Made by a program: the position numbers and the translations under genes
In this document: piece after piece, positions 14,979 to 20,488 of the stretch
Numbering within the stretch: the stretch's first letter is position 1
Layout of the letters: the number at the start of each line of letters is the position of its first letter
Notes under the pieces: model-generated
What the model saw: only the letters and a program-made list of their open reading frames with translations
Told to the model about the DNA's origin: nothing
The model's database searches: none
DNA from: Blastococcus sp. PRF04-17
GTDB lineage: Bacteria; Actinomycetota; Actinomycetes; Mycobacteriales; Geodermatophilaceae
Direction of reading: 5' to 3'
Assembly (NCBI RefSeq): GCF_023016265.1
Contig: NZ_CP095412.1
Coordinates: 1,302,001-1,366,000, forward strand
Length of the DNA: 64,000 bases

Positions 14979-15038
14979 GCGCCAGAACCGCGGTTTCGGC
15001 CCCTCCGGGGAGGGGCCGAAACCGCGGTTCTGGCGCCT
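14977..15038. repeat. 62-bp palindrome (AACCGCGGTT family) between lipB and leuS
   Basis: Two perfect 30-nt arms (14977-15006 and 15009-15038) with a 2-nt centre. They start inside the lipB stop and end on the first base of the leuS stop. Each arm contains AACCGCGGTT, itself a palindrome. It probably acts as a bidirectional terminator. Related copies are at 37907-37959 and 46646-46703. Confidence 0.85.
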
Positions 15039-17923
15039 CAGCCGAGGACGAAGTTGACCAGCCGGCCGGGGACGGCGACGACGCGGCGCACCGTCTTCCC
15101 GTCCAGGTGTGCCGCCACCTTCTCGTCGGCCCGCGCCGCCGCCTCCAGCGCGGCTGCATCGGCATCGGCCGGCACGCTGACCTGAGCCCGCACCTTGCCG
15201 TTCACCTGGACGGCGACCTGCACGGTGTCCTCCACCAGCCAGCGCTCCTCGGCGACCGGGAACGGGTGCCAGGCCAGCGACTCGCCGTGGCCCAGTCGCG
15301 ACCACAGCTCCTCGGCCACGTGCGGGGCCAGTGGCGCGACCATGAGCACCAGCGGCTCGACGACCGAGCGGGGCACCGGCCGGTCGGCGCCGTACACCGA
15401 CGTCAGGTGGTTGGTCAGCTCGGTGATCCGGGCGATGGCGATGTTGAACCGCAGCGTCGAGAACCCGTCGCGGACGCCGGCGATGGTCCGGTGCAGGGCA
15501 CGCAGCGTCTCCTCCGACGGCTCCTCGTCGGCGGCCCGCACGGCCCCCGAGTTCTCGTCGACCACCACGCGCCAGATCCGCTGCAGCAGCCGCTGCGACC
15601 CGACGACGGCCTTGGTCTCCCAGGGCCGCGACTGGTCCAGCGGGCCGGTCGACATCTCGTACACGCGGAAGGTGTCGGCCCCGTACGCGCCGATCATCTC
15701 GTCCGGCGTGACCATGTTCTTCAGGCTCTTGCCGATCTTCCCGTACTCGCGGTTGACCGGCTTGCCCTCGTAGAAGAACTGCCCGTCCTTCTCGACCACG
15801 TCGGTCGCCGGCACGTAGAACCCGCGCTCGTCGGTGTAGGCGTAGGCCGAGATGTAGCCCTGGTTGACCAGCCGGCGGAACGGCTCCTCGCCCGAGACGT
15901 AGCCCAGGTCGAACAGCACCTTGTGCCAGAACCGGGCGTACAGCAGGTGCAGGACGGCATGCTCGACCCCGCCGACGTAGAGGTCGACGCCGCCGACATC
16001 GCCGGGCTCACGGGGACCCAGCCAGTAGCGCTCCAGCTCCGGGTCGACCATCTGCTCGTCGTCCCCCGGGTCGAGGTAGCGCAGGTAGTACCAGCAGGAG
16101 CCCGCCCAGTTGGGCATCGTGTTGGTCTCGCGGCGGTACTTCTTCGGCCCGTCGCCCAGGTCCAGCTCGACCGTCGTCCACTCGGTCGCCCGCGACAGCG
16201 GCGGCTCCGGGGACGAGTCGGCGTCGTCGTCGGCGAAGGTCTTCGGTGAGTAGTCGTCCACCTCGGGCAGCAGCACCGGCAGCATCGACGTCGGGACGGC
16301 GACCGGCAGGTCGTGCTCGTCGTAGACGATCGGGAACGGCTCGCCCCAGTAGCGCTGCCGGCTGAACAGCCAGTCGCGCAGCTTGTAGGTGGTCGTCGCC
16401 TCGCCGGAGCCCTTCGCCACCAGCCACTCGGTGATGCGGGCGATGGCGTCGGCCTTGGTCAGGCCGTCCAGCGAGATCTCGTCGTTGGCCGAGTTGATCA
16501 TCTGGCCGGCGCCGGTCCACGCCTCGCCGTCCCAGTCCGCCGGCGGCTGCACCGTCCGGACGACGTCCAGCCCGAACGCCTTCGCGAAGTCCCAGTCGCG
16601 CTGGTCCTCGCCGGGCACCGCCATGATGGCGCCGGTGCCGTAGCCGGTCAGCACGTAGTCGGCGATGAACACCGGCAGCTCGCGGCCGTTGACCGGGTTG
16701 AGCGCGGTGACGCCCAGCCAGACTCCGGTCTTCTCGCGGCCGGCGTCCTGCCGGTCCAGCTCGGAGCGGCGCGACGCCTGGCGCTGGTAGGCCTCGACGG
16801 CCTCCCGCGGGGTGGCCGCTCCCCCGGTCCAGCGCGGGTCGGCGTCCGCCGGCCACTCCGACGCGGTCAGCGACCCGACCAGCGGGTGCTCCGGCGCCAG
16901 CACCATGTAGGTGGCGCCGAACAGCGTGTCCGGGCGGGTGGTGAAGACCTCGATGGTCTCGTTGTTGCAGGAGAAGCCGATCCGCGCACCGGTCGAACGG
17001 CCGATCCAGTTGCGCTGCATCAGCTTCAGCGAGTCGGTCCAGTCCAGCCGGTCCAGGTCGTCGAGCAGCCGGTCGGCGTAGGCGGTGATCCGCATCATCC
17101 ACTGGGTCAGCGGACGCCGGAACACCGGGAAGTTGCCCCGCTCGGAGCGCCCGTCGGCGGTGACCTCCTCGTTGGACAGCACGGTGCCCAGCCCGGGGCA
17201 CCAGTTCACCGGCGCCTCGTGCAGGTAGGCCAGCCGGTGGGCGTCGACGACCTTGCGCTTGTCGACCTCGTCCAGCTCCGCCCACGGCCGACCCGACGGG
17301 TTCGTGCCCGGGGCCGGCTCACGGGTGCCGGCATCCAGCTCGGCGACCAGCTCCTCGATCGGGCGCGCCTTGCCGGCCGACTCGTCGAACCACGACCCGA
17401 AGATCCGCAGGAAGATCCACTGGGTCCACTTGTAGTAGCCCGGGTCGATCGTGGCGAAGGTCCGCCGCTCGTCGTGGTCGACGCCCAGCCGGCGCAGCTG
17501 CGCCTTGATGGCCGCGATGTTCTGCTCGGTCGTGATCCGCGGGTGCTGACCGGTCTGGACGGCGTACTGCTCGGCGGGCAGGCCGAACGCGTCGTAGCCC
17601 ATGGGGTGCAGGACGTTGCGCCCGTCCATGCGCAGGAAGCGGCTGGTGACGTCGGTGCCCAGGTAGCCCAGTGGGTGCCCGACGTGCAGGCCGGCGCCCG
17701 ACGGGTAGGGGAACATGTCCATCAGGAAGGCCTTGGGCCGGTCGGCCACCTTCTCGAAGCCGTCACTCAGCGAGCCGGTCGGGTTCGGCGTGTGGAACGT
17801 GCCCTCGGCCTGCCAGCGGTCCTGCCAGGAGAGCTCGATGCGGTGCGCCAGCTCCGGCGTGTAGCGGTGCGGCGGGACGTCCCCGGCCGGCTGGCCGTTG
17901 GACTGGTCGGCGTTCTGGCTCAT
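15038..17923 (-). CDS. leuS: Leucyl-tRNA synthetase
   Basis: Class Ia synthetase charging tRNA-Leu. It is 961 residues long. The HIGH signature is HVGH at residues 80-83. The large editing domain is present ([20 protein letters not shown] area). The KMSKS loop reads KIGKSLKN near residue 727, a tolerated variant. ATG at 17923 is the natural start. About 130 nt of leader upstream contain a small leucine-rich peptide and an intrinsic terminator, so expression is probably controlled by leucine-dependent attenuation. Confidence 0.97.
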
Positions 17924-17966
17924 CGCTGGTGCTCCTGGGTCATCGCAACGTACCGGCGGCAGACAT

Positions 17967-17992
17967 GAAGAAACCCCTCACTCAGGAGGGGT
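17967..17992 (-). terminator. Attenuator hairpin upstream of leuS
   Basis: Read on the minus strand, ACCCCTC, a 6-nt loop and GAGGGGT form a 7-bp stem, followed directly by TTCTTC. The stem ends about 45 nt before the leuS ATG, with no gene in between other than the leader peptide upstream. It fits a conditional terminator. Confidence 0.7.
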
Positions 17993-17993
17993 C

Positions 17994-18027
17994 GCCGTGC
18001 TGTCCGAGCGTCTCAGGTCAGCACGGC
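17994..18027 (-). promoter_or_regulatory. Second leader hairpin upstream of the leuS attenuator
   Basis: GCCGTGCTG and CAGCACGGC (9-bp arms at 18027-18019 and 18002-17994) form a hairpin whose 5' arm overlaps the last codons and the stop of the leader peptide. A ribosome finishing or stalling on the peptide would change this fold and could influence the terminator 2 nt further on. Confidence 0.5.
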
Positions 18028-18053
18028 CGGCGAAGCAGGAGCCGCCTGGTCAC
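18018..18053 (-). CDS. leuS leader peptide with three consecutive Leu codons
   Basis: An 11-codon frame starting with GTG encodes MTRRLLLRRPC. The three leucines use CTC, CTG and CTT in a row. It has no ribosome site; a TAGGCT -10 box (18065-18060) lies 6 nt upstream, so it would be a leaderless start. Position, leucine run, pause-like hairpin and terminator together match classical amino-acid attenuation. The coding call is an inference from arrangement, since the frame is very short. Confidence 0.65.
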   Translation of the reverse strand: MTRRLLLRRPC

Positions 18054-18059
18054 CGCGCC

Positions 18060-18065
18060 AGCCTA
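18060..18065 (-). promoter_or_regulatory. -10 box of the leuS leader transcript
   Basis: TAGGCT on the minus strand, 6 nt before the leader GTG. The -35 region (18088-18083) is a poor match. Confidence 0.45.
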
Positions 18066-18205: not shown

Positions 18206-20488
18206 GTGCAATCGACCTCGGCGGCGAGAGCTAGCCGCCCGGCGGGCTCGCGGCCGGCACTGATCTTCACGCTCGTCTCGCTCGGCCTGTTCGCGACCGG
18301 GATCGGGCCACGTCCCTCCGGCGACGCCTGGGCTGCGACCTACGACCTGGTCCTCTACAACGCCGTGTACGTCGGGGCGGCGCTGGTCTGCCTGCTCGCT
18401 TGTCGGCGTTCCCGTGCCGACCGAGTCGCCTGGGCGGCGCTGGCCGCCGCGATCGTCCTCGGCCTCGCCGGCAACCTGGTCTACACGCTGGCCGTCGCCA
18501 CGCTGCCCGAGGAACCGTTCCCGTCGGCCGCAGACTTCTTCTACCTGGCGTACTACGTGCCGCTCTACGTGGCATTGGTGGCGCTGATCCGCACGCGGGT
18601 CACCCGCTTCCACGCCAGCATGTGGCTCGACGGGGTGGTGGGCGCACTCGGCGCCGGAGCGGTCTCCGTCGCCGTCCTGCTCGGACCGGCCCTCGAACTG
18701 ACCGAGGGCGACATCGCTGCGGTCATCACGAGCATGGCGTACCCGATCGCCGACGTCGTCCTGCTGGCGCTCCTCGTGGCGGTCGGCGCGATCCTCGGCG
18801 TCCGCCGCGACCGGACCCTGCTGCTGCTCGCCGCGGCGATCGCAGCCAACCTGCTCGGCGACATCGTCTTCCTCGACCTCGCCACCCAGGGCATCTACGT
18901 CGAGGGTGGGCCGCTCGACCTCACGTGGCTGACCGCGATGGCGCTCATCGCGATCGCGGCCGCGACCAGCCGCGAGGCGCCGCGCACCGGCGAGACCACC
19001 CGCGTCGGATGGCGCGTGCTCGCCGTTCCGCTGGCCTGCAACATGGCCAGCCTCGTCGTCCTCGGCCTGGACGCCGGCAGTCGGTTCAACCCCGCGGCCG
19101 CCTGGCTCGCGGTCGGCTGCGTGCTGGCTGCCCTCGCCCGGGTCGCGATCACGTTCCGGGAGGTGCGCGCGTTCAACGAGGTCAGGGAACAGGCCCTCAC
19201 CGACGAGCTGACCGGGCTGCCGAACCGTCGCGCCCTGTTCGCGCAGACGACCGCCGTCCTGGAGGGAGCCTCGGCCCAACGGCCCGCGGCCTTCCTGCTC
19301 CTCGACCTCGACGGCTTCAAGGAGGTCAACGACAGCCTCGGCCACCACGCGGGTGACCATCTGCTGCGGCAGGTGGGCCCGCGACTGCGCCCCGCGCTGC
19401 GGACGGGTGACGTGCTGGCCCGCCTCGGTGGCGACGAGTTCGCCGTCCTCCTGCCGGAGGCCGGCCTGGACGAGGCGGAGGCGCTCGCCGAGCGGCTCCG
19501 GCAGCTGCTGCTGCAGCCGTTCACCGTCGAGGGCATCCGCCTGCACGTCGGCGTCAGCATCGGCGTGGCCAGCGCCCCGGTGCCGGCCGCGACGGTCGAG
19601 GAGCTGCTCCGCTGCGCCGACGTCGCCATGTACGCGGCGAAGGCCGGACGCTCCGGCGTCCACGTGTACGTCCCCGACCCGCGAGGCGGCACCAGCGACC
19701 GGCTGCGCACGATGGAGGAGCTGCGGACGGCGCTGGAGCGCGAGGACCAGCTCGTGGTCCACCTGCAGCCGCAGGTCGACCTGGACGACGGGCGGGTGGT
19801 GGGCGCCGAGGCGCTCGTCCGCTGGCAGCACCCGGTCCGCGGGCTGCTCTCACCCGCGGACCTGCTGCCGGCGGCCGAGCAGGCGGGTCTGCTCCGCCCG
19901 CTCGCGGACGCCGTACTGGAGCTGGCCCTGGACGCAGCGGCACGGTGGTGGCCCCAGCGCGAGGTGCCCGTGTCGGTGAACCTGTCCGCGGCCAACGTCA
20001 CCGACCTCGACCTCCCGGGCAAGGTGGCCCAGGCACTGCTCCGCCACGGTCTGCCGGCCGCGGCGCTGACCCTCGAGCTGGTGGAGGACACGCTGATGTC
20101 CGACCCCGAGCGGGGTCGCCAGGTCCTCGGCGAGCTGCGCCGGCTCGGCGTCCGGACCTCGATCGACGACTACGGCACCGGCTACAGCTCGCTGGCCTAC
20201 CTCCGGCACCTCCCGGCCGACGAGCTCAAGCTCGACCGGAGCCTCACCCACGACGTCGGCACCGACGTGCGGGCGGCGGCGATCGTGCGGCACACCGTGG
20301 CGCTGGTGCACGAGCTGGGCATCTCCCTGGTCGCCGAGGGCGTGGAGGACGACGCCACCGGCCTGGTCCTGCGCGATCTGGGCTGCGACGTCGCCCAGGG
20401 GTACGCCATCGCCCGCCCGATGCCGGTCGAGGACTTCCTGCAGTGGCTGCAGCGGCCGGTCCGCCCGCTGGGGGTCGGCTCGAGGTAG
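18206..20488 (+). CDS. Membrane GGDEF-EAL cyclic-di-GMP protein
   Basis: A 760-residue dual-domain c-di-GMP enzyme. Residues about 15-300 form a multi-helix membrane domain of roughly eight helices. The GGDEF domain starts at DELTGLPNRR, and its active site RLGGDEF near residue 408 is intact, so it could make c-di-GMP. The EAL domain has GAEALVRW near 533, SIDDYGTGYSSL and LVAEGVED, the residues needed for phosphodiesterase activity. Both activities therefore look possible. GTG at 18206 was chosen; GTG at 18204 is out of frame. It converges on the F420 oxidoreductase with a 4-bp gap. Confidence 0.93.
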   Translation: MQSTSAARASRPAGSRPALIFTLVSLGLFATGIGPRPSGDAWAATYDLVLYNAVYVGAALVCLLACRRSRADRVAWAALAAAIVLGLAGNLVYTLAVATLPEEPFPSAADFFYLAYYVPLYVALVALIRTRVTRFHASMWLDGVVGALGAGAVSVAVLLGPALELTEGDIAAVITSMAYPIADVVLLALLVAVGAILGVRRDRTLLLLAAAIAANLLGDIVFLDLATQGIYVEGGPLDLTWLTAMALIAIAAATSREAPRTGETTRVGWRVLAVPLACNMASLVVLGLDAGSRFNPAAAWLAVGCVLAALARVAITFREVRAFNEVREQALTDELTGLPNRRALFAQTTAVLEGASAQRPAAFLLLDLDGFKEVNDSLGHHAGDHLLRQVGPRLRPALRTGDVLARLGGDEFAVLLPEAGLDEAEALAERLRQLLLQPFTVEGIRLHVGVSIGVASAPVPAATVEELLRCADVAMYAAKAGRSGVHVYVPDPRGGTSDRLRTMEELRTALEREDQLVVHLQPQVDLDDGRVVGAEALVRWQHPVRGLLSPADLLPAAEQAGLLRPLADAVLELALDAAARWWPQREVPVSVNLSAANVTDLDLPGKVAQALLRHGLPAAALTLELVEDTLMSDPERGRQVLGELRRLGVRTSIDDYGTGYSSLAYLRHLPADELKLDRSLTHDVGTDVRAAAIVRHTVALVHELGISLVAEGVEDDATGLVLRDLGCDVAQGYAIARPMPVEDFLQWLQRPVRPLGVGSR

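Follow-up and report, generated by a model that had tools for sequence, protein, structure and literature searches.

A probable leucine-responsive attenuator with a leaderless leader peptide precedes leuS in Blastococcus sp. PRF04-17 and in other Actinomycetes

In the window, the whole 64,000-nucleotide stretch of Blastococcus sp. PRF04-17 DNA analyzed here, leuS is very probably governed by a ribosome-mediated transcription attenuator that has a leaderless leader peptide and presumably responds to leucine. An earlier note, made from the letters alone, had described a TAGGCT box, a GTG-started frame of 11 codons with CTC CTG CTT, a 9-bp hairpin overlapping the stop codon, an intrinsic terminator and leuS, and we found every one of these elements on the minus strand (18065-17967). 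They are listed below.

18060..18065, minus strand: −10 box TAGGCT of the leader promoter; 69 of 70 leaders have TANNNT 6-7 nt 5' of their start codon, a count made with a covariance model that itself includes the −10 box region
18018..18053, minus strand: leader frame, GTG to TGA, peptide VTRRLLLRRPC, whose first residue would be fMet; lacks a Shine-Dalgarno site
18033..18041, minus strand: regulatory codons CTC CTG CTT; slots −3, −2 and −1 are Leu in 57, 68 and 70 of 70 leaders
18019..18027, minus strand: 5' arm of hairpin A, overlapping the final leader codons and 2 nt of the stop (folding, covariation)
17994..18002, minus strand: 3' arm of hairpin A (folding, covariation)
17993, minus strand: one G separating hairpin A from the terminator, pairable with the base just past the terminator stem and paired in the consensus fold
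17986..17992, minus strand: 5' arm of the intrinsic terminator (folding, covariation)
17973..17979, minus strand: 3' arm of the intrinsic terminator (folding, covariation)
17967..17973, minus strand: U-rich tail UUUCUUC, whose first base is the last base of the terminator 3' arm
17932..17937, minus strand: putative Shine-Dalgarno-like CAGGAG of leuS, read from the sequence
15038..17923, minus strand: leuS, leucyl-tRNA synthetase, 961 aa (TIGR00396, E 3.9e-267)

The TAGGCT box is separated by a 6-nt gap from the GTG at 18053, and this distance suggests that the frame, which ends in a TGA at 18020-18018, is translated as a leaderless message. Hairpin A has a stem of 9 bp (GCCGUGCUG:CAGCACGGC), the GC-rich terminator stem has 7 bp (ACCCCUC:GAGGGGU), and the ATG of leuS, at 17923, follows 43 bases after the U-rich tail. 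The identity of leuS is supported by a score of 888.7 bits against TIGR00396 (cut-off 548.4), and its closest named relatives are the LeuS proteins of Geodermatophilus, Blastococcus and Modestobacter, with 83-88% identity. The neighboring gene (18206-20488, plus strand), which is divergent from leuS, encodes a GGDEF-EAL-type protein according to NCBIfam, associated with c-di-GMP turnover. A search with Rfam 15 gave no matches above the curated threshold in the 64-kb window, and membership in an Rfam family was rejected on this basis.

Conservation of the leader in the family and the class

The −10 box, leader frame, hairpin A and terminator were recovered in all 34 leuS leaders of the Geodermatophilaceae, 33 of them by pattern and one (L092) by hand; this set comprises the leader of the window's own genome, 29 from relatives and four from named organisms, with loci obtained from 30 of the 37 family genomes. 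Three of these leaders (L095, L097 and L101) carry two Leu codons or an interrupted Leu run. In alignment A2, the U-rich tail lies directly 3' of the GC-rich stem in 34 of 34 leaders. The leader pattern was passed by 67 of 111 loci, among which L001 and L082 represent the same place, and two loci that failed it (L009 and L092) were added by hand; 50 of these 69 entries form alignment A1. Most of the 44 loci missed by the pattern correspond to LeuS of other phyla, and among them are also actinobacteria lacking a leader by this pattern, including Nocardia (L007, L010), Aeromicrobium (L030), Mycolicibacterium (L036), Buchananella (L044), Aeriscardovia (L043) and Acidimicrobiaceae (L023).

A covariance model was built from 50 leaders (34 from Geodermatophilaceae, 3 from Pseudonocardiaceae and 13 from Streptomyces) and searched against genomes of the class, where it matched 167 of 393 genomes and 61 of 123 genera at E <= 0.001, mostly with one match per genome. 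The matches to Geodermatophilaceae and Streptomyces are not independent findings, since both groups contributed to the training set. The remaining 226 genomes gave no match at this threshold, under strict search filters that lose weak matches; the 20 listed among them all belong to a single family (f8) of the same order. When 40 class loci from 39 genomes and 22 families, hand-picked among the matches listed, were inspected with tblastn, all 40 lay just 5' of leuS and on the same strand, and the last slot of the regulatory run was Leu in all 39 loci with a readable leader. In one of these, L167 (genome G127), the Leu run has become QQQRL and the single Leu is kept at the last slot. The earlier note had staked its reading on the persistence of the Leu codons and the terminator in relatives, and the counts of 34 of 34 in the family and 40 of 40 before leuS in the class bear this out.

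In a draw of genomes across the phylum, the model matched 31 of 396, three of which are outside the class (G523, G677 and G689, family f86); the two inspected (L240 and L241) show LLL codons before a LeuS-like frame. One genome (G245) has two leuS-like genes (L161 and L162), each preceded by its own attenuator matching the model. The leaders of the window, the Geodermatophilaceae and named Streptomyces can be aligned column by column, with 25 of 147 columns invariant and covarying stems.

Both hairpins show compensatory changes across families. In alignment A3, which contains 71 leaders fitted to the model, 31 of which trained it and 40 of which did not, 98.9% of the cells in the 16 pairs are standard pairs and 10 of the 16 pairs are changed on both sides, a number reached by none of 500 shuffles; when the partner was slid by 1-3 columns, only 40-60% were paired. 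Being fitted to the structure, A3 leans towards it, and we therefore give the values for A1 (50 leaders, MAFFT), which was not so fitted: 98.6% paired, 40-59% when slid, and four pairs with double changes, a number that 7 of 500 shuffles attained. When the 34 family rows are taken by themselves, one of 16 pairs has double changes (reached by 103 of 500 shuffles), and this comparison is indecisive because such close relatives vary too little. An all-pairs covariation scan on A1 placed a pair of hairpin A and an inner extension at the top, alongside apparent phylogenetic noise; since noise-like pairs were among the highest, the pair counts are preferred over the scan.

A chance assembly of these elements was rejected. 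The scan pattern, TANNNT followed after 6-7 nt by an ATG or GTG frame of up to 20 codons with any triple residue, was applied to both strands and found a single place in the 64-kb window, the leuS leader, which also has the hairpin with a T tail; the full combination was present in 0 of 60 random 64-kb sequences with the dinucleotide frequencies of the window. The folding energy of the leader is only mildly unusual (z −1.94, equaled or bettered by 6 of 200 shuffles). The strong evidence is comparative, and the folding energy alone is unconvincing.

Leucine codons, adjoining hairpins and the proposed switch

We propose that transcription would start at or beside the GTG, as the distance from the −10 box implies, and that a 70S ribosome would initiate at the 5' end of the RNA. 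With ample charged tRNA-Leu, the ribosome would pass CTC CTG CTT, reach the stop codon and mask the 5' arm of hairpin A, and the terminator would form. When charged tRNA-Leu is scarce, the ribosome would stall on the Leu codons, hairpin A would fold just ahead of it and termination would be averted, with more synthetase being made as a consequence. Hairpin A would have to block the terminator for this to hold; it may do so by abutting the terminator base and preventing closure of the bottom pairs within the RNA exit channel, a step to which we assign roughly even chances.

The arrangement of codons was examined in 70 leaders, after dropping from 71 the locus L155, which a contig end truncates. 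ATG serves as start codon in 37 and GTG in 33, with 6 or 7 nt separating it from the −10 box. In all 70 leaders a Leu codon ends 5 nt before hairpin A, whereas the leader stop falls 7 nt inside hairpin A in 57, 2 nt before it in 7 and further inside in 6 (range −2 to +25); the spacing between the Leu codon and the hairpin is therefore held while the stop drifts. At this last codon (18033-18035 in the window) we found CTT in 59 leaders, CTC in 11 and CTG in none. CTT is rare in leuS coding sequence: one of 2,625 Leu codons in the first 2,700 bases of each of 37 leuS bodies (4 Geodermatophilaceae, 3 Pseudonocardiaceae and 30 Streptomyces), 8 of 489 in the leuS segments of the 40 class loci, and 0 of 80 in the window's own leuS. 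Among the 38 tRNA sequences fetched out of 47 tRNA matches in the genome, the anticodons for Leu include GAG, CAG and UAG. The anticodon GAG reads CTT and CTC, and UAG may also read CTT.

The footprint of the ribosome has its edge 12 nt from the A-site codon, and folding was calculated with the front edge 12 nt past the first base of that codon. A ribosome waiting on the first Leu codon gives hairpin A a predicted mean probability of 0.96, which drops to 0.35 when the last Leu codon is occupied and to 0.00 once the stop is reached; in the model, this is the behavior required of a sensor. The terminator, sharing no arm with hairpin A, stays at 0.91 without a ribosome and at 0.94, 0.93 and 0.89 with the ribosome at the first Leu codon, the last Leu codon and the stop, respectively. 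The two hairpins are separated by 1 nt in 62 leaders, 2 nt in 7 and 3 nt in 1, and in 48 of the 62 with a 1-nt spacer this base can extend the terminator stem by one pair at its bottom, which brings the two stems into contact. Because they abut with no shared arm, they do not compete for bases, unlike those of trp-type attenuators. An abutting upstream hairpin was detected in 63 of 64 attenuator-like terminators, in 7 of 39 other terminator-like sites and in 0 of 39 with shuffled upstream sequence; the attenuator-like and other sites were separated by sequence pattern, and there may be attenuators among the 7. An abutting hairpin is thus not a general habit of terminators here.

These observations bear on how the earlier claim of a ribosome-mediated attenuation layout should be read: conservation upholds the layout, while the classic picture of competing hairpins does not fit as it stands, given two hairpins without a shared arm. 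A base-sharing antiterminator could have been missed, either as a pseudoknot or as pairing outside the modeled stretch. In favor of this explanation, the Streptomyces leuS leaders are described with antiterminator and terminator hairpins in the accessible part of PMC1262725, the neighboring hairpins of Corynebacterium glutamicum ilvBNC overlap by 3 nt according to the portion available of PMC11857589, and the stems called in the ilvB leader of this same genome share one base. Until the 3' arm has been transcribed, however, the terminator 5' arm is mostly unpaired: with the ribosome at the first Leu codon its paired probability averages 0.12 (0.39 with shuffled upstream sequence) and exceeds one half in 0 of 70 leaders, compared with 0.27 and 7 of 70 without a ribosome, and 0.32 and 10 of 70 with the ribosome at the stop. 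Pseudoknot-free folding of the 70 leaders revealed no hidden base-pairing antiterminator, and the hairpins lie only 1-3 nt apart in all 70, with a single nucleotide in most. We consider this explanation unlikely. With the terminator probability near constant and its 5' arm not generally sequestered by upstream sequence, equilibrium base pairing alone gives no switch, and an antiterminating hairpin A, which the logic of the regulation calls for, would have to work without taking bases. Slightly less unlikely, though still well short of probable, is an auxiliary role in which hairpin A serves as a pause or stacking aid to the terminator or paces ribosome and polymerase, while antitermination arises elsewhere, for example from coupling between a halted ribosome and the polymerase. 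The two hairpins do co-fold in every calculation unless the ribosome is at the stop, and their abutment could favor coaxial stacking; yet such a role predicts no lift of termination in leucine shortage, or one in the wrong direction, because hairpin A stays unmasked while the ribosome sits at the first Leu codon, and the constant 5-nt spacing between the last Leu codon and hairpin A points to this hairpin as the output of the sensor.

Two further explanations were considered. Control might be exerted on the translation of leuS, by reinitiation or by sequestration of its start, instead of or besides termination; the leader is close to leuS, and by inspection the terminator segment CUCCUG could pair with the CAGGAG before the gene, but a U-rich tail straight after a GC-rich stem in all the family leaders of A2 speaks for termination, and we regard translational control as improbable, though it may contribute alongside termination. 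Very improbable is a constitutive terminator accompanied by a chance short frame, with leuS expressed from a promoter below the terminator. The window does contain a TACGTT between the T tail and leuS, but among 33 leaders it is the only one with a TANNNT there, which indicates that there is no conserved second promoter of this form. The earlier note had named a transcription start downstream of the terminator as refuting its reading; a conserved promoter of that kind is not supported by these 33 leaders. The Leu codons are also conserved as amino acids, and the combination did not arise in the random window-sized sequences. Finally, the frame upstream runs on the plus strand from 18206; since this neighbor is divergent, the terminator serves no upstream gene in the window, and a role as the terminator of such a gene was rejected. 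The preferred reading thus remains the attenuator in which hairpin A, folding ahead of a stalled ribosome, would avert termination.

Related leaders before other genes and comparison with known systems

The same arrangement was detected before ilvB and citramalate synthase. In the genome of the window, a second match of the leuS model (E 4.5e-4) lies before ilvB (L142:1431-1600; about 4216385-4216554 of C1), where a TAGAGT box is followed after 8 nt by a GTG frame of 31 codons ending CPLSLVIA* and by a hairpin touching a terminator. Seven other class genomes gave second matches (E 3.4e-6 to 1e-3), three of them before ilvB (MRQDLLVPQGRAD, MRQDLLVRTRRVG, VRTNSRLLVLGRRA) and four before citramalate synthase (MRHSLVIIGWRADT, MFYGLLIIGRRAG twice, MRISLVIIGWRAGI). 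The gene names were assigned by NCBIfam in 6 of these 8 cases and by inspection only in L198 and L199. The citramalate synthase leaders (L196, L197, L198 and L201, family f29) occupy approximately positions 1500-1610 of the matched strand, and the gene is identified by TIGR00977 in L196, L197 and L201 and by inspection in L198. They carry Leu-Val-Ile-Ile or Leu-Leu-Ile-Ile codons, with the last Ile codon ending 5 nt before hairpin A in all four. The regulatory residues are LLL for leuS, Leu/Val(/Ile) for ilvB and Leu-Val/Leu-Ile-Ile for citramalate synthase, and this change of residues with the pathway on a constant chassis is a prediction of ribosome-mediated attenuation. The terminator stem begins at the next base after hairpin A in 7 of the 8 (the stems of the ilvB leader in the window's genome sharing one base), an abutment towards which detection is biased, as the search model has its hairpins side by side.

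Among known systems, the enterobacterial trp, leu and phe attenuators decide between termination and read-through by the halting of a ribosome on cognate codons, and some of their leaders have rare codons, as is proposed here. Those leaders possess a Shine-Dalgarno site, and their hairpins vie for a segment common to both, whereas the leader in the window has neither feature. To judge by the title of a 2020 work by Canestrari, leaderless poly-cysteine short ORFs of mycobacteria reportedly act as cysteine-responsive attenuators of the downstream operon; by that title they resemble the present element in being leaderless short frames with a run of the cognate codon and differ in the amino acid, cysteine instead of leucine. 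The mycobacterial cys leaders have no conserved terminator hairpin, according to the accessible part of PMC1262725.

A leaderless Leu attenuator of leuS, as announced in the earlier note, is present in its layout and is not new, given the reports from Streptomyces. Classical attenuators were predicted before leuS of S. coelicolor and S. avermitilis in 2005 (PMC1262725, accessible part), and in S. lividans the leader LeuL2 (MRAVRLLLSEPR) is leaderless by RNA-seq, with a hairpin and a U-stretch lying between it and leuS (PMC8079986, in the portion available), where leaderless leaders are also listed for ilvBHC and others. The element in the window is a member of this kind of Streptomyces leuS attenuator in another family, with which it shares the gene, three Leu codons, hairpin and U-stretch terminator and, as predicted from the −10 distance, a leaderless leader, as far as the available text of those two papers describes it. 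The LeuL2 peptide, as given in that portion of PMC8079986, is identical to those of many Streptomyces leaders that we fetched, and these align with the leader of the window. In comparison with Streptomyces, the window has a GTG start and a peptide ending in RPC, and by inspection its hairpin A loop is short, whereas that of most Streptomyces leaders contains an additional, variable inner stem. According to the same accessible part of PMC1262725, altering codons of the S. coelicolor ilvB leader left regulation unaffected, and the outcome of changes in the leuA leader did not fit classical attenuation. In C. glutamicum ilvBNC, the available text of PMC11857589 describes a leader start 1 nt from the transcript 5' end and adjacent antiterminator and terminator hairpins, which offers a precedent for neighboring stems of this kind; there, unlike in the window, where no arm is shared, the hairpins overlap by GCC and an anti-antiterminator is described.

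The class-wide spread, the preference for CTT or CTC at the last codon and the lack of a shared arm were not found in the searched text of open-access papers, which is weak evidence of absence, and the same holds for a citramalate synthase attenuator in actinobacteria; on this weak evidence, these features of the leuS leaders and the reuse of the chassis before ilvB and citramalate synthase are apparently unpublished. Tentatively, and with a little less than even confidence, we suggest a chassis in which an antiterminator abuts the terminator, mostly at 0-1 nt, and acts as a steric block, which is reused with altered codons before leuS (Leu), ilvB (Leu/Val/Ile) and citramalate synthase (Ile) and which, in leuS, reads a single isoacceptor, tRNA-Leu(GAG), through a CTT or CTC set at a constant distance from the hairpin.

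The leuS switch is known from Streptomyces, and the wider comparison makes questions about its mechanism testable; the leader alignment is also suited to a covariance-model family. How antitermination works here is an interesting question, and our guess is a step from hairpin A to antitermination that involves no sharing of bases. It can now be tested whether two hairpins that merely touch exclude each other inside RNA polymerase and whether leaderless initiation makes such short leaders workable. As CTT is almost invariant in the leader yet seldom used within leuS itself, it is likewise testable whether tRNA-Leu(GAG) may serve as the single leucine-sensing isoacceptor.
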